The translations under genes were made by a program, and so were the position numbers. The notes beneath the pieces were generated by a model. It was given only the letters and a program-made list of their open reading frames with translations. It had not been told where the DNA came from and did not search any database. From Eutreptiella sp. 'Long Island Sound 2002' (lineage: Eukaryota; Euglenozoa; Euglenophyceae; Eutreptiales; Eutreptiaceae), in NCBI GenBank assembly GCA_964036045.1, contig OZ038384.1, forward strand, positions 46,376,851 through 46,440,850: a DNA stretch of 64,000 nt, read 5' to 3'. Shown piece by piece: positions 6,138 through 41,856 of the stretch (positions are counted from its first letter, which is position 1; each line of letters begins with the position of its first letter).

Positions 6138-6195
6138 CCACCAGCTCGGTGACCCTAGCCCTAATCAAGACTGAATATTGGGACCGAGCTGGTGG
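6138..6195. repeat. inverted-repeat hairpin enclosing a telomere-like tract (unit 1/2 junction)
   Basis: CCACCAGCTCGGT at 6138-6150 and its exact complement ACCGAGCTGGTGG at 6183-6195 enclose a 32-base spacer containing CCCTAGCCCTAA. The same arrangement occurs at 7291-7348, 8477-8534 and 10561-10618. The expanded versions at 11724-11811 and 12889-13012 are listed separately. Only the right arm survives at 5067-5079 and only the left at 14099-14111. Confidence 0.85.
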
Positions 6196-9599: not shown

Positions 9600-9650
9600 C
9601 CTAAAAAGGGCCCCAAAATGGGCTCAAAATGGTCTCATTTCACCCGTTTG
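9600..9650. repeat. satellite unit junction lacking the telomeric hairpin
   Basis: At the unit 4/5 junction, CCCTAAAAAGGG runs straight into CCCCAAAATGGGCTC. About 160 bases are missing: the TTATAAAACCAAGACTGG segment, the hairpin with its telomere-like tract, and the start of the next unit. This explains the 977-base length of unit 5 and looks like a deletion between short G/C-rich matches. Confidence 0.75.
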
Positions 9651-10474: not shown

Positions 10475-10505
<31 letters not shown>

Positions 10506-11723
10506 AAACCTGGTAGGTCCACCCTAGACCCTAAAAAGGGTTATAAAACCAAGACTGGTTCCACCAGCTCGGTGACCCTAGCCCTAATCAAGACTGAATA
10601 TTGGGACCGAGCTGGTGGGGGAGGGAACATTAGATATGAATGGCGAGGGACACCAATGAGTTACACATTGAAGGCCGTTGACAGGGTGGAATCAGCTTGC
10701 AAGTGATCCCCTTCACCACAAGGCACACTTTCAAGGCTTTTGTGGACTTGTGAGGGGCCAAAATGCCCCAAAATGGGCTCAAAATAGGCTCATTTCACCC
10801 GTTTGTGCACCCCAAATGGTCTAGGATGAGTTTTGGAAAAATGCGTTTTTGACCCATTTTTGACCCATTTTTGGTCCCAAAACAGCGCATCTTCAAGGCA
10901 TTTTGGGATTTTCGGAGGACCAAAATGGGCCACCCCAAGCTCAAAACAGTCTAAAAACACTTGTTTTAGCATCACACATGGTCTAGGATCATTTTTGAGA
11001 AAAGTCATTTTTCTGCCCCTATTGGACCCTATTGACCCATTTGGGCACCCACCTGTTTGGGCTTGAGCTTGCAGCTTGCCGCAGCCTACTGGGCTTGGGT
11101 ACGGGGGTCTAGGCGTCCATTTGGGCAATTTTGAGGGGTGGAAACCACAAAACGAGGGGGGTTGCGGGTGGATTAGGTGCCCTCGGAATCGCGTTTTGAG
11201 CCATGTAGCCAAAGATATGGCCTATTCTTGGTTTGTGGCTGTCGCCAGCCAATCTGCACAAAATTTGGGGCTTGTGGGGGCCTTTTTGGGCCGTTTCCGG
11301 GACATATGGTGGAGTCAGAGGGCCGCAAATGGCTCGTTGACACAAGAAAGTCAAGCCGCACATGGAGTGCACCCACCCTTTCCCTTTCCTTGGCCGTTTT
11401 GAATGGGTTCTAGGGCTCTTTTGGCCCAAAAATGGCTGTTTTTGGCCCTAAATTGCAGTTTTTGAAACTAAGTTCCGCCACTTGCGACACCCATTCCCGG
11501 CCGCCACCGTTGAGTTTCTGGCTCAAACTTTGTGTGGTTGTCCCTCACACCCATAGGTATCATCCACCAAAATTTCAGCCGAATGTGAAGCACCACGACG
11601 GATGTCTGATTTTTCCCCATTTCGCGCGTGCTGCTTGTTGCTGCTTGCTGCTTGTTGCTGCTGCTGCTAAACCTGGTAGGTCCACCCTAGACCCTAAAAA
11701 GGGTTATAAAACCAAGACTGGTT

Positions 11724-11811
11724 CCACCAGCTCGGTGACCCTAACCCTAACCCTGGCCCTAACCCTAACCCTAACCCTAATCAAGACTGAATATTGGGAC
11801 CGAGCTAGTGG
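11724..11811. repeat. expanded interstitial telomeric tract inside hairpin arms (unit 6/7)
   Basis: Left arm CCACCAGCTCGGT, then about seven CCCTAA-type repeats (one variant reads CCCTGG), then AATCAAGACTGAATATTGGG and a right arm with one mismatch (GAGCTAGTGG). The extra copies relative to other junctions show that the tract length changes while the bracket is kept. Confidence 0.85.
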
Positions 11812-12888
11812 GGGAGGGAACATCAGCTATGATTGGTGAAGGACATCAAGAATGATTCACACATTGATGGCTCTTGACAAATTGAAATCAGCTTGCAAGT
11901 GAACCCCATCACCATGAGGCCCACTTTCAAGGCTTTTTGGACTTCTGAGGGGCCAAAATGCCCCAAAATGGGCTCAAAATGGGCTCATTTCACCCGTTTG
12001 TGCACCCCAAATGGTCTAGGATGAGGTTTGGAAAAATGCATTTTTGACCCATTTTTGGTCCCAAAACACCCCATTTTCAAGGCATTTTGGGATTCTCGGA
12101 GGACCAAAATGGGCCACCACAAGCTCAAAACGGTCCAAAAACACTTGTTTTAGCGTCGCACATGGTCTAGGATCATTTTTGAGAAAAGTCATCTTTTTGC
12201 CCCTATTGGACCTTGTTGACCCATTTGGGCACCCACCTGTTTGGGCTTGAGCTTGCAGCTTGCTGCAGCCGAGTGGGCCTAAGTATTGGGGTCTAGGTGT
12301 CCGTTTGGGCAATTTTGAGGGGTGGAAACCACAAAAAGTGGGGGGTTGCGGGTGGAGTAGGTGCCCTCGGAATCGCATTTTGAGCCATGTAGCCAAAGAT
12401 ATGGCCTATTCTTGGTTTTTGGCTGTCGGCATTTGGAGCTTCTGGGGGCCTTTTTAGGCCGTTTCCGGGACATATCATGGAGTTAGAGGGCCGCAAAGAG
12501 CTCGTTGACACGGGGAAGTCAAGCCGCACGTGCAAAGTACCCACCGTTTCCCTTCGTTTGGCCGTTTTGAATGTGTTCCAGGGCTTTTTTGGCCCAAAAA
12601 TGGCTGTTTTTGGCCCTAAACTGCAGTTTTTGAAACTGAGGTCTGCCACTTGCGAATCCCGTTCCCGGCCGCCACCGTTGAGTTTCTGGCTCAAACTTTG
12701 TGTGATTGTACTTCACACCCATAGGTATCATCCACCAAAATTTCACTGAAATCCAAAGCACCACGACGGAATTCTGATTTTTACCCATTTCGCGCGTGCT
12801 GTTGCTTGCTGCTTGCTGCTGTTGCTTGCTGCTAAACCTAGTAGGTCCACCCTAGACACTAAAAAGGGTTATAAAACCAAGACTGGTT

Positions 12889-13012
12889 CCACCAGCTCGG
12901 TGACCCTGACCCTAACCCTAGGGCTAACCCTAACCCTAGGGCTAACCCTAACCCTAGGGCTAACCCTAACCTTAACCCTAATCAAGACTGAATATTGGGA
13001 CCGAGCTGGTGG
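12889..13012. repeat. expanded interstitial telomeric tract with 18-base higher-order repeat (unit 7/8)
   Basis: Between intact 13-base arms, the tract contains three turns of an 18-base unit, CCCTAACCCTAGGGCTAA. In this unit one TTAGGG-like hexamer is inverted (AGGGCT) within the CCCTAA run. It is followed by ordinary CCCTAA repeats. It is the longest telomere-like tract in the window. Confidence 0.85.
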
Positions 13013-14098
13013 GGGAGGGAACATTAGATATGAATGGTGAGGGACATCAAGAATGATTCACACATTGATGGCTCTTGACAAAGTGAAATGCACCTGAACC
13101 CCATCACCACGAGGCCCACTTTCAAGGCTTTTTGGACTTCTCAGGGGCCAAAATGCCCCAACATGGGCTCAAAATGGGCTCATTTCACCCTTTTGTGCAC
13201 CCCAAATGGTCTACGATGAGTTTTGGAAAAATGTGTTTTTGACCCATTTTTGACCCATTTTTGGTCCCAAAACAGCCCATTTTCAAGGCATTTTGGGATT
13301 CTCGGAGGACCCAAATGGGCCACCACAAGCTCAAATCAGTCCAAAAACACTTGTTTTAGCGTCGCACATGGTCTAGGATCATTTTTGCGGAAAGTCATAT
13401 TTTTACCCCTTTCGGACCCTGTTGACCCATTTGGGTACCCACCTGTTTGGGCTTGAGCTTGCAGCTTGCCACAGCCTAGTGGGCCTAGTTATTGGGGTCT
13501 AGGCGTCCGTTTGGGCAATTTTGAGGGGTGGAAACCACAAAAAGTGGGGGGTTGCGGGTGGAGTAGGTGCCCTCGGAATCGCATTTTGAGCCATGTAGCC
13601 AAAGATATGGCCTATTCTTGGTTTGTGGCTGTCGGCATTTGGAGCTTCTGGGGGCCTTTTTGGGCCGCTTCCGGGACATATCATGGAGTTAGAGGGCCGC
13701 AAAGAGCTCGTTGACACGGGGAAGTCAAGCCGCACGTGCAGTGTACCCACCGTTTCCCTTCGTTTGGCCGTTTTGAATGTGTTCCGGGGCTTTTTTGGCC
13801 CAAAAGTGGCTGTTTTTGGCCCTAAACTGCAGTTTTTGAAACAGAGGTCCGCCACTTGCGGAATCCCGTTCCCGGCCGCCACCGTTGAGTTTCTCGCTCA
13901 AACTTTGTGTGATTGTACTTCACACCCATAGGTATCATGCACCAAAATTTCAACCAAATCCAAAACACCACGACAGAGTTCTGATTTTTCCCCATTTCGC
14001 GCGTGCTGCTTGCTGCTGCTTGCTGCTTGCTGCTGCTGCTGCTAAACCTGGTAGGTCCACCCTAGACCCTAAAAAGGGTTATAAAACCAAGACTGGTT

Positions 14099-14126
14099 CC
14101 ACCAGCTCGGTGACCCTAACCCTAAC
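14099..14126. repeat. terminal satellite junction: left hairpin arm plus two CCCTAA repeats
   Basis: The array ends with the left arm CCACCAGCTCGGT followed by CCCTAACCCTAA, which runs directly into a C run. No right arm follows, so the array stops exactly inside the telomere-like tract. Confidence 0.8.
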
Positions 14127-14255
14127 CCCCCCCCCCTCACCCCATCCGACGCCCCCCTGACCCCCGGCCAGACCCCCCCCCGACCCCCGGCTTGACCCCC
14201 CCCCGACCCCCGGCTTGACCCCCCCCCAACTCTGCCCCCCCCCCCCGCCCCGAGT
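14127..14255. repeat. C-rich minisatellite, ~21-base unit
   Basis: C runs alternate with GACCCCCGGCTTGA in about three turns with a period of roughly 21 bases. The block fuses at its left with the last telomere-like tract of the satellite and ends in a 13-14 base C run at its right. Confidence 0.75.
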
Positions 14256-23399: not shown

Positions 23400-24713
23400 G
23401 GTGGGATATCCCTTCTCCGAGGACCAGAATCACCTTTCCATCCTAAACCAGCCGCAAGACCAGTACGTCTTGCATGAGCCGGTGACTGTCGGTGTGTGGT
23501 AGAGCCGCCTAGTGTTCCAACAGGACGAAAGCCTGGGCTAAGGTTATGTCCCGCAATAGCATGGAGAGGGACGCATAGCTCTGCCTAGAGGCTTATGCGC
23601 TGCGGGGTCGAGGAGATTCGTGGGATGTAGAGGTGGCTACCCGGACAAGCATGCCCATTTGGTGGGCATGGCCCAAACCAACCGCAGTGGAGGGACGTTG
23701 TTGGGGACCCGCGAAGTGCCAAGTCTTGATCGGAGCTCCCTACCGCGGACTGCAGAGCAGAGGTGATGATGTGTGTGACGTCCTCCAGCGAGACCACCAG
23801 GGACTGACGCTTTCCCACCCCTTCACAAACCCTCCGCGGCCTGTGAGCGAGGGTTTGCACCCGGAGACGTAGCTGTTCGCCCACGGAGACCGATCCAATG
23901 AGAAGAGCACTCAGGACGGCGGGTGCTTACGGGGGTGGCGCCACTGGGACGTGCTCGAGGAGTCATTGATTTTTGGACTTCTTCCTTGGCACATCTCGCA
24001 CTCTCACCGTGTGGGCCGACGGCTTCGTCAAACCTGCGCCCCACAATTGTTTGACGGATTTTGCTTGCGTGCGGCCTTCGGACAACCACTTTTCCGCGCG
24101 GCGATCTCCGAACGCAGGGCGGCCACGCGTGCGGGCTGTGGCACTCAGCTTTAGTCAAAGGTGGGGTGCCGTCGCGGGAACGGCGCGCACCATGGAAAGT
24201 GGGAAGGTGGGTTGCACGGGTGCGGGGGGAAGGACGGGCTGCCATGCCGCGACGACGGCGTGTACTCACGGTCGTCGTAGTAGTGGTAAGGGCTGCTGTG
24301 GCGCCACCGGCTGCGATCTGCTAGCTTTCACGTATCTCGACGATCGCAGAGACCCTATGGAGAAAGGCTCCGTTGGTCCCGGAGGGATGGGGGAAGGTCA
24401 TTTCCCTCTTACCACGACGCTCGGCGCTCATCGGAACGCCACCGGTGCTGTGTGGGCTGCAGCGACCGCCTTCTCGAGCGGCTGGCCACTATGTAGAACT
24501 CAAACACTGTCTAAATAGACATGGCTCATCTCCTCTTGCCACCTTGCGCCATGCATCGAGGGGGAGGCACAGTCGGCAGATCCCATCACGTGGTGCACGA
24601 GACAACACCAACCCTGGCTTGGCTAGGAGGGCGAAGACGGCCGCCCATATCTCCACCGTGCTCCGGCCCGAGAGGCCACTGAGCTCCACGTCTTGACTGT
24701 GTTCTTCTAGGCT
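23400..24713. other. unassigned, continuous with 37306 onward before element II inserted
   Basis: Minus-strand frames exist (24489-24806 with STVEIWAAVFALLAKPGLVL, and 23823-24269), but I cannot assign them. Because element II and its target duplication AGGCT lie between 24709 and 37305, this sequence was originally joined to 37306-39300. Confidence 0.4.
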
Positions 24714-24738
24714 CTTAGGCGACACAACTCGCCTGCCC
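24714..24738 (+). repeat. left terminal inverted repeat, element II
   Basis: Begins CTTAGGCGACACAACTCGCC. It is followed by CTCTAGGACCCCGT, identical to the sequence after the left end of element I. Confidence 0.8.
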
Positions 24739-24915
24739 TCTAGGACCCCGTTTATGCATGATGTGAGAATATTGTACATGTCTATTTTGAGTATGCTATT
24801 TGACATATGTGACTAATGTTGTTACCAGCGCTGTGTGACACCCATTGAAATAGTTGGTGATGTGTTACCCTTATGTATCCAGTTCCTCTAGTGTGTTGTA
24901 TTTGACGTTTTTGAA

Positions 24916-25150
24916 GCTGGCCGAAATTAAGGCTAGCTTTTTGGTTTCTCAGTGAATAGGTATAGTTATTTTCATTTTTCTTCGGGCCGGCCGAAATTCC
25001 GGCCAGGTTTCTGGTCTATTTACTATTCAAGCACTCCCATTCCGGTTTTTTGGCGGTCTGGCCAAAATTTCGGCCACCTTTTCCTATTTTTGCAAATATA
25101 AGCAATTGTTTCACCTTCGGACACACCTGCCCTAAACGTCGGCCAGCTTG
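24916..25150. repeat. four decayed palindromes in the leader of element II
   Basis: Starts at 24916, 24985, 25057 and about 25127 (gaps 69, 72, 70). The copies are mutated, for example GGCCGAAATTCCGGCC and CTGGCCAAAATTTCGGCC. They correspond one to one with four of the five motifs in the element I leader. Confidence 0.8.
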
Positions 25151-25217
25151 CAATGGTCATTGTTCATGAGTATTACACCTTACACTCCTACATAGCTGCT
25201 TTCTTGTCACAACATTA

Positions 25218-26990
25218 ATGTCTTCTGCTGTTACTATAAATGTCGTACATGCTGCAGTTACTGGTGCTTTTGCTACTACAGCCAAAGGGCTGTTGCGAAA
25301 TGCATTACGCGGTGGGAATCTGCAAAAGCTTTTGCAATTCTGCCTCATGTTGCGGAAGAATCGCAGGAGCCGGCATTCTATGGCATAGTTCAAGGCTGCC
25401 GCCACCGACAAGAATCCCCCGCGATGGTACTTGACATTTTTGCCATAGTTCCATGCCCTGTACTGCCTGCTGCGCCGTATGGCCCTCCCATACTCTAACT
25501 GTAGGTCTGGTCACAACTAGGGTATTATGTCTTGCCGCCAACGCCGCAAGGTAGGAGTCCTTGGTCAGTGTAGCACTAAGCAGGAGTCCATTCACCATCG
25601 TGCTGGACTAGCAGCACACAACTTGTGGAACACCATGCACCGTAGGCAAGTTTGTATATGGTTTGATAACCCGAGGCGTTACAGGTCGGGAGATGATCCC
25701 CATTCACCTCACCTAACCCTAAACTGTATAGCTGTTGCTGTTTTGCACACTATTGCCCTGTTTGCATACCCGGGTCTGCCGGAGCTGGCCGAAATTGCGG
25801 CCAGGGTACCAAAGGTTGCAGATGACATCTTTCGCTCACATAGACCATTGTTTGATCGTATTGATGTTGCCAACCAAGGTATTCAGAGAGTTTGGGTTCA
25901 TGCTCCTTTCCATGTTGCCAAAAAAAAATTAGTTATCCAAACTGGAGACCTTTTTTCTTGTGTGAACTCCGCTCCGGCACACGCAAAGAGCTTTCGCAAT
26001 TTGTGGTTGATCTGTCATGTGTGGAACACCGCACCAGGCACTGTGTTCCGCTGCTTGTGGACATGAAAATACACTTTGCACCACTTAAGCTGTGTTATGG
26101 TGCGGCCTATTTCTGTGGAATGTACCGCAACTACTGTTGGGTTTTCCTTTGGTATACGGTGTGTGGCATAGCTATAAGTACTGCGTTGAATTCATCTATA
26201 GGGCCTTCCTGCCGTTCATTGAGTTTTTTGAGCAAGGGAATAGCCTTCAAGCTGGGTCTATCCTCCCTCGCACGGTCAAGGTCATCCATATGGAGAAGAC
26301 CTTGCTTGGACTCATGCTAGCCACATCGTCCAATAGAGGCAGACTAGATGAGCGTGTAACTGCCCTGCTGATTAGCCAGCGGGAGTTGACACCCATTCAA
26401 CGCAAGGGTCTGCGTATGTTATTAGCCCTTAAGGCGTTGCTATACACATACTGTCCAGCCGCTTTGAGCATTGGGACTTTGGTGCGTGAGTGCAACTGGG
26501 AGGGCCGGGGGGCAGGTTCCGGGTTTGTTGCTAAGCAGGCTTTTGAGATGTCCCTACTGCTCATGCTAAACATCCTAAACCCCGGGGAGCAGTTAGCCAC
26601 GGAGTATGTGAAAACCACTGCCGTTGCTTCTTTGTTTTGGAGTCAGTGGCATTCCTCCTCCCTAGGGTGTATCCACTCTGAGGAGCTGGGGGAGGCACTT
26701 CTACGTCGGTTCTAAGCTCACCGTCGCCGCACCACTGCCTGTACCATTGTCCAACGGTCATCTGATTTGGTTCTGACAATTCCCCTGTCCAACCGGGGGA
26801 GAAAGTTTTGCGTGGTGTGTTGACTGAGAGATCTGTGCCAATGTTCTCTGCCAATCTGAAACAATTCGTCTTGACAGCCCATACACGGAGCATCCCCATA
26901 TGTGTTCCCGTTCCTGACTATAAAGTTGAGGTGAGAAGACTGGATGCAGTTGATGATCTGTCTTTCCCTGGTACCAAGTCTACGACATGA
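25218..26990 (+). pseudogene. element II ORF1 (WFDN/LLVDMKIHF protein), broken
   Basis: Starts at ATG 25218, as in element I. Compared with the sister copy it has in-frame TAG codons at 25386, 25446 and 25518, a frameshift near the A run at 25919-25927, another near 26110, a TAA at 26713, and small indels near 26780. It retains about 350 bp (26272-26622) that element I has lost, encoding IHMEKTLLGLMLATSSNRGR, LVRECNWEGRG and AVASLFWSQWHSSSLG, so it is the only guide here to the full-length protein. The motifs CIWFDNPRRYR, LLVDMKIHF and LVYGVWHSYKYCVE are shared with element I. I do not recognise the family. A transposase role is an inference from its being the largest conserved protein of an element with inverted repeats. 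Confidence 0.7.
25785..25804. repeat. palindrome embedded in ORF1 codons (element II)
   Basis: CTGGCCGAAATTGCGGCCAG lies in the ORF1 frame and encodes part of PELAEIAARVP. Element I has CTGGCCGAAATTGAGGCCAG at 28454. Confidence 0.75.
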
Positions 26991-26999
26991 ATCACCACA

Positions 27000-27308
27000 G
27001 ACCGGTTGAAAGTGGTTCTGTTGCATGCAATGCAAAATCTGGTTGCGCGTACCACAGTTCTTGAGGCTGTTGAGGCTTTTTTTACAAACAAATGCACCCG
27101 CTCGCACTGCTGTCCAGCAAGGGGTATTGTGTACTGCACATGCTTCGATCCGTGCTGCCAACCGTGCACCGCCTGCTTCTCCTGGTGGGACTGCCTTGCC
27201 CCCAAAGCCACCCCCCAAGCCCCGAGCGAGACCCCCCCCCCAGTACCTCCCCCCCCCGTCCAACCTCGGGTAGTGCAGGCCCCTGCCCCTGATGATTGCT
27301 CCATTGCC
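27000..27308 (+). pseudogene. element II Pro-rich tail, 5' half
   Basis: In the ORF1 frame, after an in-frame TGA (26988-26990), come VVLLHAMQNLVART, then (after one extra T in a T7 run near 27077) LQTNAPARTAVQQGVL, SIRAANRAPP and a Pro-rich stretch with C runs. The reading frame ends where element I is inserted (27308). Its acidic 3' half resumes at 33462. Confidence 0.6.
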
Positions 27309-27333
27309 CTTAGGCGTCACAAGTTGCCCACCC
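27309..27333 (+). repeat. left terminal inverted repeat, element I
   Basis: CTTAGGCGTCACAAGTTGCC then CACCC; an exact reverse complement of 33432-33456. Confidence 0.95.
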
Positions 27334-27514
27334 TCTAGGACCCCGTATACGCGCGATTTGACAATATTCTACATTTCTACTTTGAGTATGTTATTTGACG
27401 TATGTGACCAAAGTGGTTGGCAGAGCTGTGTGACACCCGTTGAAATACGTGTTGATGTGTTAGCCTTGTGTACCCCCGTTTTCTAGTGTGTTGTATTCGA
27501 CGTTTTTCTGAAGG

Positions 27515-27815
27515 TGGCCGAAATTTCGGCCAGGTTTTGGGTAACATTGCAAACAACTATGTGTATATGCAGTTGTTGACCCTTCTGGCCGAAATTTCGG
27601 CCAGCTTTTTGGTTTTCTTGGTGAATAGGCATAGTTATTTTCATTTTTCTTAGGGCTGGCCGAAATTTCGGCCAGCTTTTTGGTCTGTTCACTATTCAAG
27701 CACTTATATTCTGGTTTTTTGGCGGTCTGGCCAAAATTTCAGCCAGCTTTTCCTATTTTTGAACATTTCAGCAATTATTTCCCCTTTGAACACACCTGGC
27801 CGAAATTTCGGCCAG
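27515..27815. repeat. five palindromes at ~70-base spacing in the leader of element I
   Basis: CTGGCCGAAATTTCGGCCAG or close variants start at about 27514, 27585, 27656, 27727 and 27796, giving gaps of 71, 71, 71 and 69 bases. Three are perfect. Each is followed by a T-rich stretch (AGCTTTTTGG or AGGTTTTGGG). The cluster ends about 70 bases before the ORF1 start codon, a position suited to a promoter or transposase-binding array. Confidence 0.95.
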
Positions 27816-27886
27816 CTTGCAATTGTCGTTGTTCATGAGTATTACACCATACACTCCTACATAACTGTTTTCTTGACTCACCATTA

Positions 27887-29312
27887 ATGTCTTCTGCTAT
27901 TGCTGTCAATGTTGTACATGCTGCAGTTACTGGTGCTTTTGCTACTACAGCCAAAGGGCTGTTGCGAAATGCATTACGTGGTGGGACTCTGCAAAAGCTT
28001 TTGCAATTCTGCCTCATGTTGCGAAAAAATCGCAGGAGCCGGCACTCCCTGACACAGTTGAAGGCTGCCGCCACTGAGAAGAAGCCCCCACGATGGTACA
28101 TGACATTTTTGTCACAGTTCCATGCCCTATACTGCCTGCTGCGCCATATGGCCCTCCCATACTCTAACTATGGGTCTGGTTACAACTGGGGTATTATGTC
28201 CTGCCGCCAACGCCGTAAGGTAGGAGTCCTTGGTCAGTGTGACACTACGCAGGAGTCCATTCACCATCGTGCTGCACTAGCGGCACACAACTTGTGGAAC
28301 ACCATGCACCGTAGGCAAGTTTGTATATGGTTTGATAACCCGAGGCGTTACAGGTCGGGAGCTGATCCCCATTCACCCGACTTAACCCTAAACTGTACAG
28401 CTGTTGCTGCTTTGCACACTACTCCCCTACCTGCATACCGGGGTCTGCCGGAGCTGGCCGAAATTGAGGCCAGGGTACCAAAGGTTGCTGATGACATCTT
28501 TCGCTCACGTAGAGCATTGTTTGATCGTATTGATGTTGTCAACCAAGGTATTCAGAGCTTTTGGGTTCGTGCTCGTTTGGATATTGCCACAAAAAATGTT
28601 CGTTCCCTCACTTGGAGACCCTTTTTCCTGTTTGAGCTGCACTCCGGCACACACAAAAAGATTTTGCAACTCGTGGTTGATTTGTCATGTGTGGAACACC
28701 GCACCAGACACTGTGTTCCGCTGCTTGTGGACATGAAAATACACTTTGCCCTACTTAAGCTGTGTTATGGTGCTGCTTATGTTCCCTGGAATGTACCACA
28801 ATTACTGTTGGATTTTCCTTTGGTGTACGGAGTATGGCATAGCTATAAGTATTGCGTTGAATTGATCTACAGGGCGTTCCTGCCGTTCATTAAGTTTTTG
28901 GAGCAGGGGAACAGCCTTCAGGTTGGGTCTATACTCCCTCGCTGTTGCTCTTTTGTTTTGGAGTCAGTGGCATTCCGCCTCCCTAGGGTGTATCCACTCT
29001 GAGGAGCTGGGTGAGGCACTTCTGAGTCGGTTCTCAGCCCACTGTCGTTGCAACACTGCCTGTACTAGTGCCCAACAGTCGTCTGATTTATTTCTGACAC
29101 TTCCCCCTATCCAACCGGGAGAGAAAGTTTTGCGTGGTGTGCTGACTGAGAGATCCGTGGCAATGTTCTCTGCCAATCTTAAACAATTCGTCTTGACAGC
29201 CCATACACAGAGCCTGCCCATTTGTGTTCCCGTCCGGGACTCTAAAGTTGAGGTGAGAAGACTGGATGCAGTTGAGGATTTGACGTTCCCCGGTACCATG
29301 TCTAGGACATGA
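27887..29312 (+). pseudogene. element I ORF1 (WFDN/LLVDMKIHF protein), internally deleted
   Basis: Open from ATG 27887 for 371 codons. The N-terminal ~110 residues are Ala/Leu- and Arg/Lys-rich (LLRNALRGGTLQKLLQFCLM, KNRRSR). Then come QRRKVGVLGQCD, CIWFDNPRRYR (residues ~145-155), LNCTAVAALH, LLVDMKIHF (~280-288) and VYGVWHSYKYCVELIYR (~313-329). After residue ~355 a 351-base segment present in element II is missing and the join shifts frame. The correct frame resumes as AVALLFWSQWHSASLG and runs through ERSVAMFSANLKQFV to TGA 29310-29312. From memory, the WFDN, VYGVWHxYK and LLFWSxWH pattern recalls uncharacterised high-copy proteins of some protist genomes; this is unverified. It may be the element's transposase. 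Confidence 0.75.
28454..28473. repeat. palindrome embedded in ORF1 codons (element I)
   Basis: CTGGCCGAAATTGAGGCCAG encodes LAEIEA in the ORF1 frame. Two changes from the consensus in the right half keep the frame open and non-repetitive in protein terms. Confidence 0.75.
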
Positions 29313-29751
29313 ATCACCACAAACCGTTTAAAAGTGGTTCTGTTGCATGTAATGCAAAATCTGGTTGCGCGTACCAGGGTTCCTGAGGGTGTTGAGGATT
29401 TTTTACAGACAAATGCACCTGCCCGCACTGGTGCCGAGCAAGGGGTGTTGCGTACTGCACATGCTTCTATCCGCGCTGCCAACCGTGCACCGCCTGCTGC
29501 TCCTGCTGCTGCTCCTGATGGAATTGCCTTGCCCCCAAAGCCACCCCCGAAGCCCCGAGCCAGAGGCCCCCCAGTACCCCCCCCGCCCCCCCCCCCCCCG
29601 CCCAGTACCCCCCCCCGCCACTGATGATTCCATTGCTGTCGACTCTTGTGATAGTGACCAGGATATTGATTGTGATGCAGACAGCGTTGCCTCCTTTGAG
29701 GCCCTAGATGAGGCGGAACACATCGGTGTGGATGCCCAGGACTGGGACTGA
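29313..29751 (+). pseudogene. element I Pro-rich and acidic tail (ORF1 continuation or separate ORF)
   Basis: It is in the same frame as ORF1 after the TGA at 29310. Segments are LKVVLLHVMQNLVARTRVPE, LQTNAPARTGAEQGVLRTAH, ASIRAANRAPPAA, then KPPPKPRARGPP and a Pro run encoded by C runs near 29576-29620. After a one-base frame change in those C runs it reads VDSCDSDQDIDCDADSVASF, EALDEAEHIGVDAQDWD and stop. The basic/Pro-rich then acidic layout suggests a disordered protein-protein interaction tail. Translation would need readthrough of TGA, splicing across it, or an independent start. Confidence 0.55.
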
Positions 29752-29884
29752 TTTCTATTTGCAGTTGTGTTTGTCACTGTGGTATGGGTTCTGCCACGCA
29801 TTGCCAGTGATTTTGGTGTGTCTATTTGCTGTTTCATGTTGTTTTGTCATATGGCTGCCCCCAGAACACAAATGACATGAGGTT

Positions 29885-29972
29885 CTGGCCGAAATTTCGG
29901 CCAGCCTCTCAAAATGGTATTTGTACACAGTGGTTTGACATGCAGAGCAGCTCTGGCCGAAATTTCGGCCAG
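29885..29972. repeat. two palindromes between the tail and ORF3 (element I)
   Basis: Perfect CTGGCCGAAATTTCGGCCAG at 29885-29904 and 29953-29972, 68 bases apart and about 120 bases before the ORF3 start. Confidence 0.95.
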
Positions 29973-30907
29973 GTTGTCTGATTTTCCTGTCAGGCATTCC
30001 GTTTTGGTCCTTTTTTGGTTGATCTGTGCTTGTTATTTGCTATCTGGGAACTCTCCCCTTCATAAAATGTTGCCCTGTAGCCCTTTATTTTATGACTGAG
30101 CGTGGAGGGGTATCACAGGACGTGGCTGTTTTGCCAGATGGTGAGCCTGCAGCAAACAAAGGGCAATCTCAAGTGCAATCCCAGTCTCAAGAGGACCAGG
30201 CGAGCACAGAGGGACTTCAAAAGAAGCCTAAGGCCGCACCAAAGAAAAATTCATCATCCTCCATCAAGTTATCCGACCGGGTTACGTCAACGACGAAAAG
30301 AAAGGTTCGGTGGGATAGATTATTATCAACCACGACCGAAAATTTGGGCAGGTCCGTAGGATTTCGGATGATCGGGTGCAACGCCGCTACGACGATCTGA
30401 AGGCAGCCCCGCCTGTGGATTACATCCAGGCTCTTCTTTTTTATAAAGTCACTCGTATGTGTGTTGTGGTATTCTTCTCAATAGTATCGTTTTTGCGTCT
30501 GAATTTTCGACCCTGCTACGAATATTCCTGTTGCACAGCCACTCGCTGGGTTCTGTTGGGGGGTAAGCATCTTTACACTGCTGCCCAAAAACACAAGACC
30601 GAATTTGAGATGAAAAACATGGAGACTCCGGATCGGACCCTGGTATTTGGTGGTTATGAAGTCAAACAGGACTGCCCCCTGCGGACTAGGCGCCGGCTTG
30701 CAGGCTTACATGAAATCCAGACCACTGCTGGCTCAGCATCCACCACATCGGAGCGAATGTTCCTACTCCTGGATAGGCTTGAGGATGAGGATGCCAATGA
30801 GTACACCCTATACCATCACATTGCTGTTATGCTTGAAGAGTGTGGTGTTACTGCCGAGGAAGGCACTGTGGTGTGTTTCGTTTATTCATTCGGTTTTGTC
30901 GATCGAC

Positions 30908-30927
30908 CTGGCCGAAATTTCGGCCAG
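30908..30927. repeat. palindrome inside ORF3 intron 2 (element I)
   Basis: A perfect CTGGCCGAAATTTCGGCCAG centred in the 87-base intron 30871-30957. Element II has the same arrangement at 34765 in intron 34728-34814, also 87 bases. Confidence 0.85.
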
Positions 30928-31305
30928 CTTCTGTGTTCCACATGTTCTCCCGTGTAGACTGCTATTGCCAAACGGTGGGCAGGCGTTGGGCGTTTGGTGA
31001 AATTTGTGGGTCTTGCTTCAGTAGACGCCATGGCAGCCATGGAAAAGCGTGGACTACATGCCGCACTGGGTACGTTCAAGGAAGTGGAAGGCATCACGCC
31101 TGACCGACTTCGCGACATCGTAGGTTACATGGATGGGACAAAAAGTACCCTACCTGGTCTCAAAAAAATTATAAAAGATGTTAAAAAGGCCGACATGTGG
31201 TCCTGGCACATTCTTCATCCGGAGGCGGTTACCAATGGGCTTGTCAACAACACGAGAGGTATGTTTTGGTCAAACAGGGGTTTGTATTCGAATAAATCGA
31301 CCGAC

Positions 31306-31325
31306 CTGGCCGAAAATTCGGCCAG
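31306..31325. repeat. palindrome inside ORF3 intron 3 (element I)
   Basis: CTGGCCGAAAATTCGGCCAG, with a shifted core (AAAATT), within the 128-base intron 31259-31386. Element II has TTGGCCGAAAATTCGGCCAG at 35163, so the variant core predates the split of the copies. Confidence 0.85.
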
Positions 31326-32712
31326 CTTGTGTGTCGTTCAATTAATGCACAATAGGAGCCCACCCTGTGACACCACTTGTCTGCAGCTACACTTGGTACT
31401 ATCAAGATGGCCAAAAGGGAGTGCGCTATTGCATCACACCTGAAGGTAGCCTATGGCAGTTGGACCTGGACTGAAGAAAACCCCTGGCCCCCGTGGTCAG
31501 CAGTAATTAAGGCCCCTCTTTGGAAGGAACCCAAATATGAGGGGTAGCGGGGATTGTTGCAGAAGCCTGTTGCTAAGCTTGTTTGTGAAAAATCTGATAC
31601 TGGTCTGGTCAGTATCCAGTATGCTAGGGAGTCCCTCGTTGAGTCAAGCACAGGCAAACTCATTGCAGAGTTAGGCCGTGTGGAACTGATGGCAATGCGT
31701 TGTGGAGTCCCTGTTCCCAGTATCATTAGTTCACTGCCCTTTGCTGCTTGTGTCATTGAGGTGCCCCGCCTCTATACAGCTGGTTTGCATAACCTGGTTG
31801 CGCAGCTGCTTTTGTCCGGTGTGCCTGTGTTCATTGCGGGTGAGTCTGCTGATGTGAAAGCCACTGTTGCTGCTTTGAAGGCCACTGTGGCTGAGGATAT
31901 GTGTCAGTGTGATGTTGCAATTTACAATTTGTCAAGCAAGACCCCGCTGTACACTTCTACGTCCCATGGTTTCCATTTGTTCTGCCACTGCATTTGAAAA
32001 CAGGCTGCCCCGTTACGTGGCTTTTACTGAAGGACCCATGTCGTCTGTGATGCCTGTTCAGATATTCTCATTTCTTTTGAGCCTGGTTCCGGTGCCAGAA
32101 CGGGCAGGCAACTGGTTTTTGCTGGGGACTCTGTCTGTGTATTTTGCAAGCATGATGTGTACCAGGTTTTTCAAGGAGTGTAATGTTGTGTGTGCCCTTT
32201 TGGGTGAGGAGACTGTTGTGCCTGATGAGTTTGTTCAGTCCATCAGAGCAGCTATCACCAACGCCGACACGTGCCCCCCCAAGTCATGGGAGGATGTGTA
32301 CCACGACTTGGGGGCAGGTTTTCCTGTGGATTGTTCTGGGGTTAGGTATGTAGATGAGGATCCCGAGGAGCAAGATGGGGAGGCAGAGTCGCAACCCGAG
32401 ACACACACTCCAAAGAAGAAACCCAAAACTGCCCCTGCCCCCTCACCCAGTGGCACGCAGTGCGCTCAGGCCACCCCAGCTTCCTCCTCAGGCACTGTGG
32501 CCCCTACTGGCAAAGGTATGAATACTTTTGTGAATCATTTTTTACCATCCCAGGGTGGAAACACAAAGTCACAGAACTCTGCCACTGCCAAGCCTGGTGC
32601 TGCAGCCCCTGCCAAGCCTCCTGCTAACACAGTTGCTAAGAAGCCCCGTGCATCTGGTCTGAGCAAGCGCTAATGCCAGTCTTGCTGCTTATATTGCCTG
32701 TCAGTATGAAGT

Positions 32713-33036
32713 CTGGCCGAAATTTCGGCAAACATGCAGTCCTCAGCCTCTTCGGCCTTTTATTATTGTGTTTCCCCATAGGCACTGCAAAAGTTTGCTT
32801 TGATTTGTCAGGTGGCAAGTATTTGCTTGTAATTGAGTATATTATCTTGCACACCCTGTTCAAATGTCACTGCTCCTGTGTTCCTTGCTCATGTCTACTG
32901 TCTTAGGTACCCATTTCAGTGATCATACTCGGAGTTTCGATGGACGTGGCCGAAATTTCGGCCAGCTTAGGCCTGTCTGTCAAATAGGACCATGTGTTTG
33001 GACAGTTTTCGAAGAGCTGGCCGAAATTTCGGCCAG
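32713..33036. repeat. three palindromes in the 3' region of element I
   Basis: A decayed copy at 32713 (its right arm reads CGGCAA), a near-perfect one at 32947 and a perfect one at 33017; the last two are 70 bases apart. The rest of 32674-33431 holds no gene that I can see. A C12 run lies near 33183. Confidence 0.9.
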
Positions 33037-33431
33037 GTTGGTTAAAATAGGAAATACAAGTACATGCTTTGGGATAGTTTTCTGTGTGCTTCAATGAAAG
33101 GTATGTTTGGGGTTCCCTCATCTGTGGTGTATAGGGGGGTTCTGTGATCAACCTGGAACAAAGGGGAGAGAAAAATAGGCAGCCCCCCCCCCCCACACTG
33201 GAATGCAGTGGTCTAAATGTAAAATAACACTATATTTTGGTGATTGAATGTCTTTATTTTGAAAATCTGTGTGTTTCCAGAAATGCAAATAATGGCATAC
33301 ATTTGAAATACACACCTTGTTTTTGCATGTTGCCACCAGGGGGGTTTGGATACCCAAAAAATAACACCCCTTTTCACATACTTTTCCCCTCATTACAACA
33401 TGGACTTCCGTGGGCCATAGCGCCAGGTGCG

Positions 33432-33456
33432 GGGTGGGCAACTTGTGACGCCTAAG
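33432..33456 (-). repeat. right terminal inverted repeat, element I
   Basis: GGGTG then GGCAACTTGTGACGCCTAAG; an exact reverse complement of 27309-27333. It is followed by the target duplication TTTCC. Confidence 0.95.
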
Positions 33457-33461
33457 TTTCC

Positions 33462-33575
33462 ATTGATTCTTGTGATAGTGACCGGCAGATTGATTGTGAT
33501 GCAGACAGCGTTACCTCCTTTGAAGCCTGAGATGAGGCGGAACACATCGGTGTGGATACCGAGGGCTGGGATTGA
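33462..33575 (+). pseudogene. element II acidic tail, 3' half
   Basis: The sequence after element I matches 29641-29755 (TCTTGTGATAGTGACC, GATTGTGATGCAGACAGCGT) and ends with the equivalent of the stop at 29749-29751. A TGA within GCCTGAGATGAGG shows it is broken. It is the other half of the frame cut at 27308. Confidence 0.65.
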
Positions 33576-33667
33576 TTTCTGTTTGCAGCTCTGTTTGCCA
33601 CCGTGGTATCTGTTCTGCCACGCATTGCCAGAGATTGTGGTGTGTCTGTTCTGTGTTTTGTGTCTTT

Positions 33668-33826
33668 CTGGCTGAAATTTCGGCCAGAGTTGTTGTTTGG
33701 CCATGTGTGTACCCCCGGAGTACAAATGACATACGGTTCTGGCCGAAAAGTCGGCCAGCTTCTCGGAATGGTATTTTTGCACAGTGGTTTAACATGCAGA
33801 GCAGTGCTGGCCGACATTTCGGCGAG
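33668..33826. repeat. three palindromes between the tail and ORF3 (element II)
   Basis: Starts at 33668, 33739 and 33807 (gaps 71 and 68), each with one to three changes (CTGGCTGAAATTTCGGCCAG, CTGGCCGAAAAGTCGGCCAG, CTGGCCGACATTTCGGCGAG). Element I has only two at this place, so the number of motifs changes in ~70-base steps. Confidence 0.9.
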
Positions 33827-33920
33827 GGTATTGGATTTTTTCCTCGGGTAGTCCATTTTGGTCCTTTTTTGGTTGAATTGTGCTTGTTATTTGCCATTTT
33901 GTAACGGTTCCATTCATGAA

Positions 33921-36533
33921 ATGTCGTCATGTGGCATCTTATTTTATGATGAGCCCGGAGGGGTATCGCAGGACGTGGCTGTTTTGCCAGATGGTGAGCT
34001 TGCAGCAGAAAGTGCGCAATCTGAAGTGCAGTCCCAGTCTCAAGAGGACCAGGCGAGCACAGAGGGACTTCAAAAGAAGCCCAAGGCCGCACCAAAGAAA
34101 AATTCAGCATCCTCAATCAAGTTATCCGATTGGGTTCCGTCAACGACGAAAATAAAGGTTCGCTGGGACCAAATTGTTATTTACCATGACGGAAAGTTTG
34201 GGCAGGTCCGTAGGATATCCGATGATCGCGTGCAGCGCCGCTACGACGATCTGAAGGCAGCCCCGCTTGTGGATTGCATGCAGGATCTCTTTTTTTATAA
34301 AGTCACTTGTATGTGTGTTGTTGTATTCTTCTCGATAGTACCTTTCTCGTGCCTAAATTTTTGACCTTGCTGTTTCTGATATTTTTGTTGCGCACCCCCT
34401 CGCTGGGTTCTGTTGGGGGGTCAGCATGTGTACACTGCTGCCCAAAAACACAAGACGGAATTTGAGATAAAAAATACGGAGACTCCGAATTGGACCCGGT
34501 TATTTGGTGGTTATGAAGTCAAGTAGGATTGCCCCCTGCGGACTAGGCGCAGCCTTGCGGGCTTATATCAAATTCAGACCACTGCTGGCTCAGCATCCAC
34601 CACATCGGAGCGAGTGTCCCTACTTCTGGATAGGATTGAGGATGAGCATGCCAATGAGTACATCCTTTTGCATCACATTGCTGTTATGCTTGAAGAGTGT
34701 GGTGTTGCTGCCGAGGAAGGCGCTGCGGTGTGTGGCGTTGTTTACTTCAGTACTTTCGATCGACCTGGCCGAAATTTCGGCCAGCTTCTCTGTTCCACAC
34801 GTTCTCCTGTGTAGACTGCTATTGCCAAACGGCTGGGCCGCGTTGGGCGTTTGGTGAAATTTGTGGGTACTGCTGCAGTAAACGCCATGGCAGCCACTGA
34901 GAAGCGTGGATTACATCCCGCACTCGGCGCGGTCAAGGAAGTGGTACGCATCACGCCTGACCGACTTCGAGAAATCGTAGGTTACATGGATGGGATAAAA
35001 AGTACCCTACCTGGTCTCAAAAAAATTATAAAACATGTTAAAAAGGCCCAGATGTGGTCGTGGCACATACTTCATCCCGAGGCGGTTACCAATGGGCTTG
35101 TCAACAACACCAGAGGTATGTTTTGGTCAAACAAGGGTTTGTATTCGAATAAATCGACCAACTTGGCCGAAAATTCGGCCAGCTTGTGTGTGGTTGAATT
35201 AATGCACAATAGGATCCCACCCTGTGACACGACCTGTCTGCAGCTACACTTGGTACTATCAAGATGGCCAAAAGGGAGTGCGCTATTGCATCACACCTGA
35301 AGGTAGCCTATGGCAGCTGGACCTGGACTCAAGAAAACCCCTAGCCACCGTGGTCAGCAGTAATTAAGACAGTTCTTTGGAAGGAACCCAAATATGAGGG
35401 GTTGCGGGGATTGTTGCAGAGGCCTGTTGCTAAGCCTATTTGTGAAAAATGTGATAGTGGTCTCGTTAGTATCCAGTGTGCTAGGGATTCCTTCGTTGAA
35501 ACAAGCCCAGGCAAACTCATTGCAGAGTCAGGCCGTGTGGAATTGATGGCAGTGCGTTGTGGAGTCCCTGTTCCCAGTATCATTAGTTCACTGCCCTTTG
35601 CTGCTTGTCTCATTGAGGTGCCCCGCCTCTATACCGCTGGTTTGCATAACCTGCTTGCGCAGCTGCTCCTGTCCGGTGGTGATTGTGTTCATTGCGGGTG
35701 AGTCTGCTGATGTGAAAGCCACCGTTGCTGCTTTGAAGGCCGGTGTAGCAGAGGATATGTATCAGTGTTATGTTTCAATTTACAATTTGTCAACCAAGAC
35801 CCCGTTGTATACTTCGAGTTCCCATCTGGTTTCCATTTGTCCTGCTACTGCCTTTGATACGAGGATGCCTCGTTACGTGGCTTATACTCAAGGGCCCATG
35901 TCCTCTGTGCTGCCTGTTGAGATATTTTCGTACCTTTTGAGCCTGGCTCCGGTCCCAGAACGGGCAGGCAACTGGTTTCTGCCGGGGACTCTGTCTCTGT
36001 ATTTTGCAAGCATGATGTCTACTAGGTTTTCCAAGGAGTGTAATGTTGTGTGTGCCCTTTTGGGTGAGGAGACTGCTGTGCCTGATGAGTTTGTTCAGTC
36101 CATCAGAGCGGCTATCACCAACGCCGACACGTGCCCCCCCAAGTCATGGGAGGATGTGTACCATGACTTGGGGGCAGGTTTTCCTATGGATTGTTCTGGG
36201 GTTAGGTATGTAGATGAGGATCCTGAGGAGCAAGATGGGGAGGCAGAGTCGCAACCAGAGACACACAACCCAAAGAAGAAACCCAAAACTGCCCCCGCCC
36301 CCTCACCTAGTGGCACGCAGTGCGCTCAAGCCACCCCCGCTTCCTCCTTAGGCACTGTGGCCCCTACCGGCAAAGGTATGAGTGCTTTTGTGAATCATTT
36401 TTCACCATCCCAGGGTGGAAACGCACAGTCACAGAACTCTGCCACTGCCAAGCCTGCTGCTGCAACTAGTGCCAAGCCTCCTGCTAACACAGCTGCTAAG
36501 AAGCCCCGTGCATCTGGTGTGCGCAAGCGCTAA
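33921..36533 (+). pseudogene. element II ORF3, four-exon gene, inactivated
   Basis: Start ATG 33921 (MSSCGILFYDEPGG). Exon 1 is 33921-34308 and is open, with KVRWDQIVIYHDGKFGQVRR and ISDDRVQRRYDDLKAAP. The intron 1 acceptor is damaged (GCGCACCCC where element I has GCACAGCCA). Exon 2 ends at 34727 and carries a TAG near 34525. Exon 3 is 34815-35115 and exon 4 is 35244-36533, with a TAG at 35342-35344 and an indel near 35680. The last 325 codons (35559-36533) are open and end in a basic Pro/Ala-rich tail (KKKPKTAPAP, AKKPRASGVRKR). The defects differ from those in element I, so the two copies decayed independently. Confidence 0.7.
34765..35182. repeat. two intronic palindromes of ORF3 (element II)
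   Basis: A perfect palindrome at 34765-34784 in intron 2 (34728-34814), and TTGGCCGAAAATTCGGCCAG at 35163-35182 in intron 3 (35116-35243). Confidence 0.85.
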
Positions 36534-36572
36534 TGCCAGTCCTAATGCTTCTATTGCCTGTCAGTATGAAGT

Positions 36573-36825
36573 TTGGCCGAAATTTCGGCCAGCATGCAGT
36601 CTTCAGCGTTCGTCATCTCTTATTATTGTGTTCCTCCACAGGCACTGCAAAAGCCTGTATTGATTGGTGAAGTGGCAAGTATTTGCTTGTAATTGAGTGT
36701 ATTACATTGCACACCATGTTGAAATGTCACTGCTCCTGTGTTCCTTGCTCCTGTCTACTGCCATAGGTACCCATTTCAGTGATCATGTTTCAAGTTTCGA
36801 TGGACCTGGCCGAAATTTCGGCCAG
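36573..36825. repeat. two palindromes in the 3' region of element II
   Basis: TTGGCCGAAATTTCGGCCAG at 36573 and a perfect copy at 36806. The equivalent of 33017 is lost here by a short deletion near 36875. Apart from a C run near 37026, nothing else is visible in 36534-37275. Confidence 0.9.
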
Positions 36826-37275
36826 CTAAGGCCTGTCTGCCAAATAGGACGATGTGTTTTGATGTTTTTCGAAGATCTTGGTTCAAATAGGAAATACAGG
36901 TACTTGCTTTGGGGATAGTTTTCTGTGTGATTCGATGAAACGTATGTTTCGGGTTCCCTTACCTGTAGTGTATAGGGGGGTTCTGTGATCACCCTGGGAC
37001 AAAGGGGAGAGAAACAATAGGCAGCCCCCCCCCCTCCCGGCATTGGAATGTGGTGGTCTAAATGTAAAACGACACTATTTGTTGGTGATTGAATATCTTT
37101 ATTTTGAAAATTTGTGTGTTGCCAGAAATGCAAATAATGGCATATATTTCAAGTACACACATTGTTTTTGCATGTTGCCACCAGGGGGGTATGGATACAA
37201 AAAAAAACAACCCCTTTTCACATACTTTTCTCCTCACTACAACATGGACTTCTATGGGCCATAGCGCCAGGTGGG

Positions 37276-37300
37276 GGGCGCGCAACTTGTGACGCCTAAG
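37276..37300 (-). repeat. right terminal inverted repeat, element II
   Basis: Ends CAACTTGTGACGCCTAAG and is followed by the target duplication AGGCT at 37301-37305. Confidence 0.85.
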
Positions 37301-37476
37301 AGGCTAGGAATGTGCCGCTTGTTGTGCGACCGCCATTCCTCGCAATCGACTCCGTGGCGTGTATCAACCGAACGGTTTTGGCTGCGGGAGGGACATCCGC
37401 TGCTCCTACTCAAGCCAATCCGCCGGTCCATGTACTTGGCCGCTCAGTTAAGCAGTAGTTGTACCCCAGCTTGGTC

Positions 37477-39510: not shown

Positions 39511-41856
39511 CCCTTGGTACACGCTAGAATACCCAATCTCGTTCTAGCCGAGAACCGGCTAGAGCGGCTAGAACGAAAAAAAGAGGGGGATACCCCCCCC
39601 CCCCCCCGCAAGGGGGCGGGGGGGATGAGGTGTCTAACCTGGACCCCCCTATCCATACTCGGGGGCCCATACTTTTTTTTTCACAATTTCACTGTTTTCA
39701 CCTGGTTTTGGAGTCCAAAAAATTTTCGTTCTAGTTGTGTTCTAGCGACGTTCTAGCGACGTTCGCTAGAACGTCGCTAGAACATTCTAGCCTAGATCAC
39801 AACTAGAACAAAAACGTTCATGCATGTGTCGCATCTAAGGGACACCAAAGTGGGGCCGGGGTGGAGGGGTAATACACATACGCTAATAAAAACCAACACA
39901 CTTGACGCATGCATAGTCATATGTGCCCCCCCCCCCCCCACACACACACTTTGGCATAGGCATATGCACAACACAACACACAGCACAAGATGTCACGGGG
40001 GGGAGGGTGGGCCAAGAGGTCGAACACAAGCACCGCACAAACTCCCCCTCAGTGTCAAGCTATCAGCCCCCCCCCCCCCCCTCTTTCCATGTTGTGGTCT
40101 GGGTTGTGGGGCCCCTGCTTGTTTTGCCTAAGGTTAGGGAGGGTATTCCTTTCCTCTTTGCAGGTGTGCTGGTTTTTTTTTCCCAATGTGGATGTCAAGA
40201 AGTGGGTACACAGTGACACCAAGAGGTAGGTGTGTTACTCCTTCCCTCCTCCCTGCCATGTACACGTGTGTGACCGTGTGTCTGTGGTATGGGGTTGCCT
40301 AGTGCACTGCTGTAGCGTCAGGAGGTGTGCTGTGCGGGTCAGTGGTGTGCTTTGTCCCCCCTCCTCCCAGTTTATGCACCCCCCCCCCTGTGTGCACTGG
40401 TGCTTGGCTTGTTGGTTGGTTGGCTTTTGGTTTTCGGGTTGCTTGGTTGGTTGTTGCGTTGGTTGGTTGGTTGTTGGTTGATTGGTTCTGGCACAGCTGA
40501 GTTTGGCTGGTTGGTTGGTTGGTTCGTTGGTTGGTTGGTTGGTTGGTTGGTTGGTTGGTTGGTTGTTGGCTAGTTGCTGGGGTGTATGTGTGTGTATTGT
40601 CTGCACACATGCTGTGTGGTGTTGCTGCACAGTGTGTCTGTGTGTAAGCTTGTATGTGCAGCGATTGCAAAGGTCCTGGGGGGGGGTTGTGCACATTTCA
40701 TTTTGGCCTTCTAGCGGCGTTCTATCGAGGTGTTCTAGCGGCGTTCTAGCGGCGTTCTAGCGGCGCCGCTTCGCTCCCTAGAACGCCGCTAGAACACCTC
40801 GCTAGAACGCCGCTAGAAGGCCAAAATGAAATGTGCACAACCCCCCCAAAGAGCCTTGCAATCGCTGCACATACAGGCTTACACACAGACACACTGTGCA
40901 GCAACACCACACAGCATGTGTGCAGACAATACACACACACCCCCCCCCAGCAACTAGCCAACAACCAACCAACCAACAAACCAACCAACCAACCAACCAA
41001 CCACCCCACCAACCAGCCAAACTCAGCTGTGCCAGAACCAATCAACCAACAACCAACCAACCAACGCAACAACCAACCAAGCAACCCGAAAACCAACAGC
41101 CAACCAACCAACAAGCCAGGTGCCAGTGCACACGGGGGGGGGGGTTGCAGAACCTGGGAGGAGGGGGGACAAAGCATACCACTGACCCGCACAGCAGCAC
41201 AGTGCATAACCCAGCTGGGGGGGGGGGGGCAAGGGAGGAGGGATGGTGGGAAGGGGGAACCTGTACACTAGACAACCCCACACCACAGACACACATGGCA
41301 GGGAGGAGGGAAGGAGTAACACACCTACCTCTTGGTGTCACCGTGTACCCACTTCTTGACAACCACATTGGGAAAAAAAACCAGCACACCTGCAAAGAGG
41401 CAAGGAATACCCTCCCTAACCTTAGGCAAAACAAGCGGGGCCCCACAACCCAGACCACAACATGGAAAGGGGGGGGGGGGGCTGATAGCTTGACACTGAG
41501 GGGGTGTTTGTGCGGTGCTTAATTAATTAATTGTTTTTGGCCTCTTACCCACCCTCCCCACCCTTGACATTGTATGTTGTGTGTTGTGTTGTGCATATGC
41601 TTTTGCAAAACTGTGTGTATGCTGGGGGGGGGGGGGCATATGCGTATCCATGCGTCAAGTGTGTTGGTTGCTATGAGTGTGTGTGTCATGCACCCCCCAA
41701 CCCACTGTGATAATTTGTTTTTTTATGTTCTACCTATTCGACCACTCCAGGCTAGAACGATCTGTGTTCTAGGCTACAACCATTCTAAGCTAGAACGTTC
41801 TAGCTAGAGCGTTCTAGGCTAGATCAAGATTGGGTCTTCTAGCGTGTGCCAAGGGG
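39511..41856. mobile_element. 2.35 kb foldback (long inverted repeat) element
   Basis: Two arms of about 1.2 kb face each other around a centre near 40764 (CGGCGCCG). Outer ends: CCCTTGGTACACGCTAGAAT (39511) against ATTGGGTCTTCTAGCGTGTG (41830). Matching landmarks on both arms: CATGCATAGTCATATG-like sequence with C or G runs, a TTGG/CCAA tract (40505-40562 and 40963-41010), CTGTGTGTCTGTGTGTAAGC and TTCTAGCGGCGTTC repeats at the centre. Short inverted TTCTAGCGACG/CGTCGCTAGAA motifs also cluster at 39727-39790. No protein is encoded; the Trp/Leu/Val/Gly-rich translations are simple-repeat artefacts. Confidence 0.9.

Follow-up and report, generated by a model that had tools for sequence, protein, structure and literature searches.

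What kind of mobile DNA occupies positions 24714-37300 of the 64,000-nucleotide stretch of contig OZ038384.1 (GenBank assembly GCA_964036045.1) from the euglenophyte alga Eutreptiella sp. 'Long Island Sound 2002', and how might it recognize its own sequence? Two related elements lie there one inside the other, in the inner one of which (element I) and the outer one (element II) an earlier note, made from the letters of this stretch (the window) alone, had seen the members of a possibly new transposon group. The analysis reported here leads us to regard both as likely cut-and-paste copies of a separate sequence lineage comprising four families (A to D), in which the first open reading frame (ORF1) would encode a transposase of the DDE (Asp-Asp-Glu) type and an element-encoded protein would read palindromes dispersed along the element and act in cis.

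Two nested elements with 5-bp target duplications

The observation of a nested pair of about 6.2-6.4 kb with inverted ends and short flanking duplications was confirmed. Element I (27309-33456, plus strand, delimited by its ends and flanks) measures 6148 base pairs (bp) and is inserted into element II, whose left part (24714-27308, plus strand) and right part (33457-37300, plus strand), defined by similarity to element I, amount to 6434 bp once the insert and one copy of its duplication are excluded. The ends of element I, which had been called perfect, were recovered as an inverted pair of 25 bp (27309-27333 on the plus strand and 33432-33456 on the minus strand), and those of element II are diverged as described, reading CTTAGGCGACACAACTCGCC on the left and, as reverse complement, CTTAGGCGTCACAAGTTGCG on the right. 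When up to three mismatches were allowed, the family A left end CTTAGGCGTCACAAG was found at 8 places in the window against 1.7 expected. Comparison of the flanks gave an exact duplication for element II (AGGCT at 24709-24713 and again at 37301-37305) and a duplication agreeing at four of five bases for element I (TTGCC at 27304-27308 and TTTCC at 33457-33461), as had been read before.

Removal of element I together with five bases restores the reading frame of element II (DDCSIAIDSCDSDRQID), as the earlier note had proposed on joining the flanks. In trial joins removing 0 to 9 bases from the tail of element II ORF1 the frame was kept at 2, 5 and 8 bases, and only the five-base join matches the length of related proteins such as P0052 (DDSSIAIDSFDSDREID). 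Aligned with each other over 6036 columns, the two elements show 88.8% identity. The description of their gene content had to be corrected: element I has complete ends but is defective, because ORF1 is 350 bp shorter than that of element II and the second gene, ORF3, carries a stop codon and a frame shift.

Copies and families across the genome

The host assembly comprises 2.28 Gb in 2205 contigs. The 15 outermost bases of the family A end match it exactly at 696 forward and 704 reverse places, against 3 and 3 for a reversed control sequence, numbers that would make up about 700 pairs of ends. We fetched 20 stretches bounded by paired ends, hand-picked from the listed places on contig C1 with both ends exact, a choice that favours young copies. 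When their flanks were tabulated, as the earlier note had suggested for further copies, 18 of the 20 displayed the ends and an exact 5-bp duplication; five was the longest exact flank match in these 18 copies and the sole matching length in 14 of them. The duplication of L025 agrees at four of five bases and L023 has none. Chance or an assembly artefact is ruled out by the 1400 end matches against 6 in the control and by the 18 duplications among 20 copies. Inverted ends and a fixed 5-bp duplication in many copies are as expected of cut-and-paste DNA transposons.

Twelve of the 20 copies measure 6.51-6.60 kb, L015, L016 and L023 measure 6.4, 6.2 and 7.0 kb respectively, and the shorter ones fall at 3.92-3.93 kb (three) and 2.2-2.3 kb (two). 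The three copies of about 3.9 kb (L024, L025 and L026, on contig C1) are non-autonomous relatives in which pieces of the leader and of the 3' part are rearranged; they match a full-length copy piecewise at about 74-82% and most of both genes is missing. Three proteins (P0003, P0011 and P0012) join an ORF1 part to an ORF3 part, as expected from internal-deletion derivatives.

A profile search with ORF1 returned 106 proteins, including clusters of 267 (P0055), 54 (P0048) and 45 (P0102) members, and 54 proteins are related to element I ORF1. Two distant relatives (P0106 and P0107, 28-29% identity) belong to other records, in which their contigs measure 2.6 and 2.2 kb. Within their own genome, where all match counts are lower bounds, P0102 gave at least 67 matches, 25 of them full-length at 94-100% identity (family C, 19 of the 25 free of stops) and seven at 32-35% identity (family D), while P0057 gave at least 77 matches, most with stops (family B). 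The open, near-identical copies of family C suggest recent activity. ORF1 identity between families A to D ranges from 25 to 46%, and the ends of all four families start with CTTAG, the left ends of B, C and D being CTTAGGCCACGCTAAC (one copy, left end only), CTTAGACGAACCAAG and CTTAGACGGCTGAAC respectively. Exact 5-bp duplications flank three of three family C copies (ACTCT, CAACA and AATCA) and two of two family D copies (TAAAT and ACAAT); one family C copy is 7209 bp long, and family D copies reach about 8.9 kb by their coordinates. No relatives and no end match were found among IMG/VR and GTDB contigs, databases from which records of this genome may be excluded.

ORF1, a putative DDE transposase

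ORF1 of element I (27887-29751, plus strand, placed by similarity and related proteins, with its deletion near 28941) and the decayed ORF1 of element II (25218-33575, plus strand, placed by comparison with element I, which splits it) correspond to an open frame of 736 amino acids in copy L011. The comparison with family profiles that had been called for gave, in Pfam, no meaningful match to pieces of ORF1 or ORF3. No Pfam family naming hAT was found at E-values up to 5 with the ORF1 pieces of the window, P0102 or P0106, in which similarity may have eroded, and searches of ORF1 and ORF3 against PDB sequence profiles returned chance-level rows only. By fold comparison (VIA-align), transposases filled the first eight rows for an ORF1 model of low confidence (predicted local distance difference test, pLDDT, 58.4), with P-element and Hermes transposases as the best matches and RAG lower; another model (family A, 59 rows), which falls below pLDDT 50 at residues 90-312, had no transposase among its matches, and comparison with BFVD gave nothing significant. 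Invariant acidic residues occur in D/D/E order in ORF1. We infer that ORF1 encodes a DDE transposase of the RNase H-like kind that contains a helical insertion and falls in the P/hAT/RAG class, with D150, D282 and E489 of P0055 as the likely catalytic triad.

A second gene shared by diverged families

The four-exon structure ascribed to ORF3 was borne out by copy L011, which encodes 761 amino acids over four exons separated by GT..AG introns. Transferred from this intact copy to element I, the exon boundaries fall at 30092-30454, 30539-30870, 30958-31258 and 31387-32673 (all on the plus strand), the last exon containing the stop and the frame shift; the decayed ORF3 of element II spans 33946-36533 (plus strand, by comparison with element I, start approximate). 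A homologous multi-exon gene follows ORF1 in families C and D, whose exons are inferred, with blastp E-values between families of 2.8e-37 (A-C), 1.2e-14 (A-D) and 4.1e-27 (C-D). Protein comparison shows that two predicted genes are conserved across families, ORF1 in A to D and the second gene in A, C and D. In the six most divergent pairs, the ratio of nonsynonymous to synonymous differences per site (pN/pS) lies between 0.36 and 0.66 in ORF1 and between 0.48 and 0.53 in ORF3; over all pairs with pS above 0.03 the median is 0.65 for both genes (ORF1, 90 pairs, range 0.36-1.58; ORF3, 77 pairs, range 0.48-1.17). This is the pattern expected of selection during activity followed by decay after insertion.

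Library searches with ORF3 returned chance-level rows only in Pfam, where neither ParB nor methylase families matched it, and nothing in PHROGs; against phage sequences (tblastn) a single match was obtained, at an E-value of 3. By eye, ORF3 contains a ParB-like string, LGGQH..LAGHHN. A ParB/methyltransferase identity gained no support: hhalign with trimmed profiles gave an E-value of 0.26, and 11 of 40 shuffles scored as well (the profiles being thin, of 3 and 6 sequences), and a full-length profile test against six phage proteins did no better than shuffles. The C-terminus of family A ORF3, GMNTFVNHFSP, resembles by eye a PCNA-interacting box.

One could ask whether ORF3 performs the transposition chemistry and ORF1 is an accessory protein. 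Such a division of labour would agree with the conservation of both genes and with an ORF1 that matches no transposase in sequence, but it appears very improbable, as the sole domain-length structural matches are those of ORF1 to transposases (ORF1 being the only protein modelled) and the invariant acids in D/D/E order belong to ORF1.

Palindromes dispersed through the noncoding parts

A feature absent from the earlier note is a set of palindromes related to TGGCCGAAATTTCGGCCA, which with at most two mismatches is found at 23 places in the window against 0 expected. All 23 lie within elements I and II, and two of them, both degenerate, are in ORF1 (25786 and 28455). Element I carries five in its leader, 69-71 bp apart (27515-27814, four exact and one with two mismatches), two exact ones between ORF1 and ORF3 (29886-29971), an exact one in ORF3 intron 2 (30909-30926), one with a single mismatch in intron 3 (31307-31324) and three, two of them exact, in the 3' part (32714-33035). 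In element II the leader palindromes are decayed (24988-25076) and the right part contains seven, three of them exact, distributed over the intergenic region, introns 2 and 3 and the 3' part (33669-36824).

None of the 12 exact palindromes of L011 is in an exon: the leader has five, the intergenic region three, introns 2 and 3 have one each and the 3' part has two. The chance of this outcome under random placement is 8e-7. Coding sequence, which makes up 69% of L011, contains none of the 130 exact palindromes counted in 15 elements of family A (the window pair and 13 of the 20 copies fetched, L015, L023 and the five short copies being excluded). The 3.9-kb relatives hold 13-16 exact and 15-17 near palindromes each, about 30 in all. 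Genome-wide, CTNNNCGAAATTTCGNNNAG was found at 7023 places against 0 for its control, 49 of the 50 listed places having the family A form, and CTNNCGAAATTTCGNNAG at 384 places against 1.

The other families have palindromes of their own. One family C copy contains 14 with the core ATCGAAATTTCGAT, many with arms C(T/A)..(A/T)G, located in the leader, the intergenic region, three introns and the 3' part, with none in the inferred exons. Family D uses CTTCCGAAATTTCGGAAG plus longer or shorter forms; five occur in copy L053, none of them in inferred exons, and one begins at the ORF1 stop codon. In family B, one leader contains four copies of the pattern CTGGGCGAAATTTCGCCCAG, 69-111 bp apart, one symmetric across 16 bases and three decayed. 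The palindromes are 18-20 bp in size, and the core CGAAATTTCG is fixed in all four families, whereas the arms are family-specific yet symmetric, those of families A and B differing by one symmetric pair.

Placement among known transposons

The proposal of a new superfamily, or a divergent branch, with at least two genes gained support from the ends and duplications of the diverged families C and D, from the two genes conserved across families and from the lack of a meaningful Pfam match; those of the suggested checks that were run did not overturn it. A limited check of the literature found no description of these elements and no paper containing the letters of the palindromes or ends. Polintons (Mavericks) are long elements that encode a DNA polymerase B and an integrase; the present elements measure 6.1-8.9 kb and have two genes, and the pieces searched in Pfam yielded neither domain. 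Transib likewise makes a 5-bp duplication, but its ends start with CAC and those described here with CTTAG; no Pfam match was obtained, and no kinship of the second gene with RAG2 was recognized, a dedicated comparison not having been made. The P element usually duplicates 8 bp, as opposed to the 5 bp found here in 18 of 20 copies of family A, three of three of C and two of two of D. P element and hAT (Hermes) transposases are the best fold matches of the ORF1 model, but the present elements differ from both in their 5-bp duplication, in their CTTAG ends and in having no Pfam domain that we could find.

It is unlikely, in our judgement, that we are dealing with strongly diverged members of a known RNase H-type superfamily (hAT5, Transib or P) in which similarity has eroded. 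The ranking of P-element and Hermes folds above RAG would agree with such an origin, but ORF1 finds no Pfam match even at permissive E-values, CTTAG is unlike the hAT, Transib and P ends, and a second gene and palindromes, common here to the diverged families, are not known to be typical of these groups. According to the parts of PMC12730594 that deal with these groups, hAT duplications are usually 8 bp, with 5, 6 or 7 bp in named subgroups, and those of KDZ (Zisupton group) are 8 bp; the 5 bp observed here departs from KDZ and fits, within hAT, the hAT5 subgroup only. The existence of hAT5 families with 5-bp duplications speaks for the eroded-member explanation, and the duplication length is by itself not unusual, contrary to the earlier note (PMC12730594). 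The elements probably form a new, undescribed superfamily of DDE DNA transposons, in which self-recognition would be an unusual feature. 'Superfamily' here denotes a sequence-level lineage, set apart from the families that could be compared, and not a new chemistry; the term is restricted in this way because fold comparison, made with a model of low confidence, points towards transposases of the P/hAT class.

A possible system of self-recognition

In the mechanism that we propose, ORF1 would cut at the CTTAG ends (5'-CTTAG..CTAAG-3') and join with a 5-bp stagger. With lower confidence, a dimeric element-encoded protein, most likely ORF3, would bind the palindromes along the element and act on that element in cis. 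The most plausible roles are to counteract silencing or to control expression, and pairing of the ends is a further option. The full form of this proposal is that dimeric ORF3 reads palindromes with the CGAAATTTCG core in leader, intergenic, intron and 3' positions, that the protein and its sites change together so as to act on their own family only, and that the elements form a new DDE superfamily; we put it forward tentatively and lean slightly against its holding in every part.

Several observations weigh against a dedicated reader. Compared with L011, 14 copies of family A have 97.4% identity in the palindromes and 95.2% at the remaining noncoding sites, and among control windows of 18 bp 37% are as conserved as the palindromes. 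An extra conservation of palindromes over their flanks in recent copies was therefore not borne out, although these copies may be too young. The leader palindromes are moreover set within 69-71-bp repeats, and no reader protein has been identified. These points would suit a scheme in which the palindromes are used by a host protein, or function as RNA hairpins or units of recombination, and were spread within elements by tandem duplication and conversion, the element encoding no reader. We consider this scheme possible though on balance doubtful: a core that stays fixed in four families, while the arms remain symmetric but vary by family, is easier to explain with a reader that tracks its family, and exact palindromes avoid exons and persist in coding-poor relatives.

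The nearest functional analogue of the element-encoded reader is found in VANDAL elements (Mutator-like, or MULE, type) and their anti-silencing VANC proteins. As described in PMC5735166, VANC21 of VANDAL21 binds a motif specific to its family, which occurs in introns, between genes and in terminal noncoding DNA, and the VANDAL motif evolved by tandem repeats. The likeness extends to the dispersed, noncoding and family-specific motif, to its link with tandem repeats and to a multi-gene element (PMC5735166). In contrast, the motif of the present elements is a palindrome of 18-20 bp whose core all four families share, and ORF3 shows no known domain; both the palindrome reader and its anti-silencing role would be putative. 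Certain algal transposons, such as Sola1-1_Ec32, carry an accessory gene with ParB and DNA methyltransferase parts that was proposed in PMC12477816 to bind and mark its own transposon; an accessory gene likewise stands beside the putative transposase here, but element size and transposase differ.

Other features of the window

Upstream of the nested pair, a tandem array of units of about 1.1-1.2 kb, 89-98% alike, extends over 5036-14128 and includes short ACCCTA runs (11738-11780 and 12903-12981). Downstream lies an inverted-repeat structure of about 2.3 kb (39511-41855), perhaps a further mobile element, whose arms are rich in GTTG and CCAA and which contains GTTCTAGC repeats. A CTTAGGCAAAACAAG pair at 40118 and 41421 was considered as element ends and rejected, since it points outward and belongs to another inverted-repeat structure. 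An open frame at 44158-44985 matches the NIF-like phosphatase family (E-value 5e-44) and is likely a host gene or exon, and two overlapping frames at 54161-55683 match reverse transcriptase (RVT_1) and represent a broken retroelement.

Implications

If our interpretation is correct, it would add to the eukaryotic DNA transposons a lineage of superfamily level, abundant in a single genome of 2.28 Gb. With proteins and palindromes matched in each of four families, it would become testable how selfish DNA recognizes its own copies, and how the specificity of a protein and that of its many sites may shift jointly.
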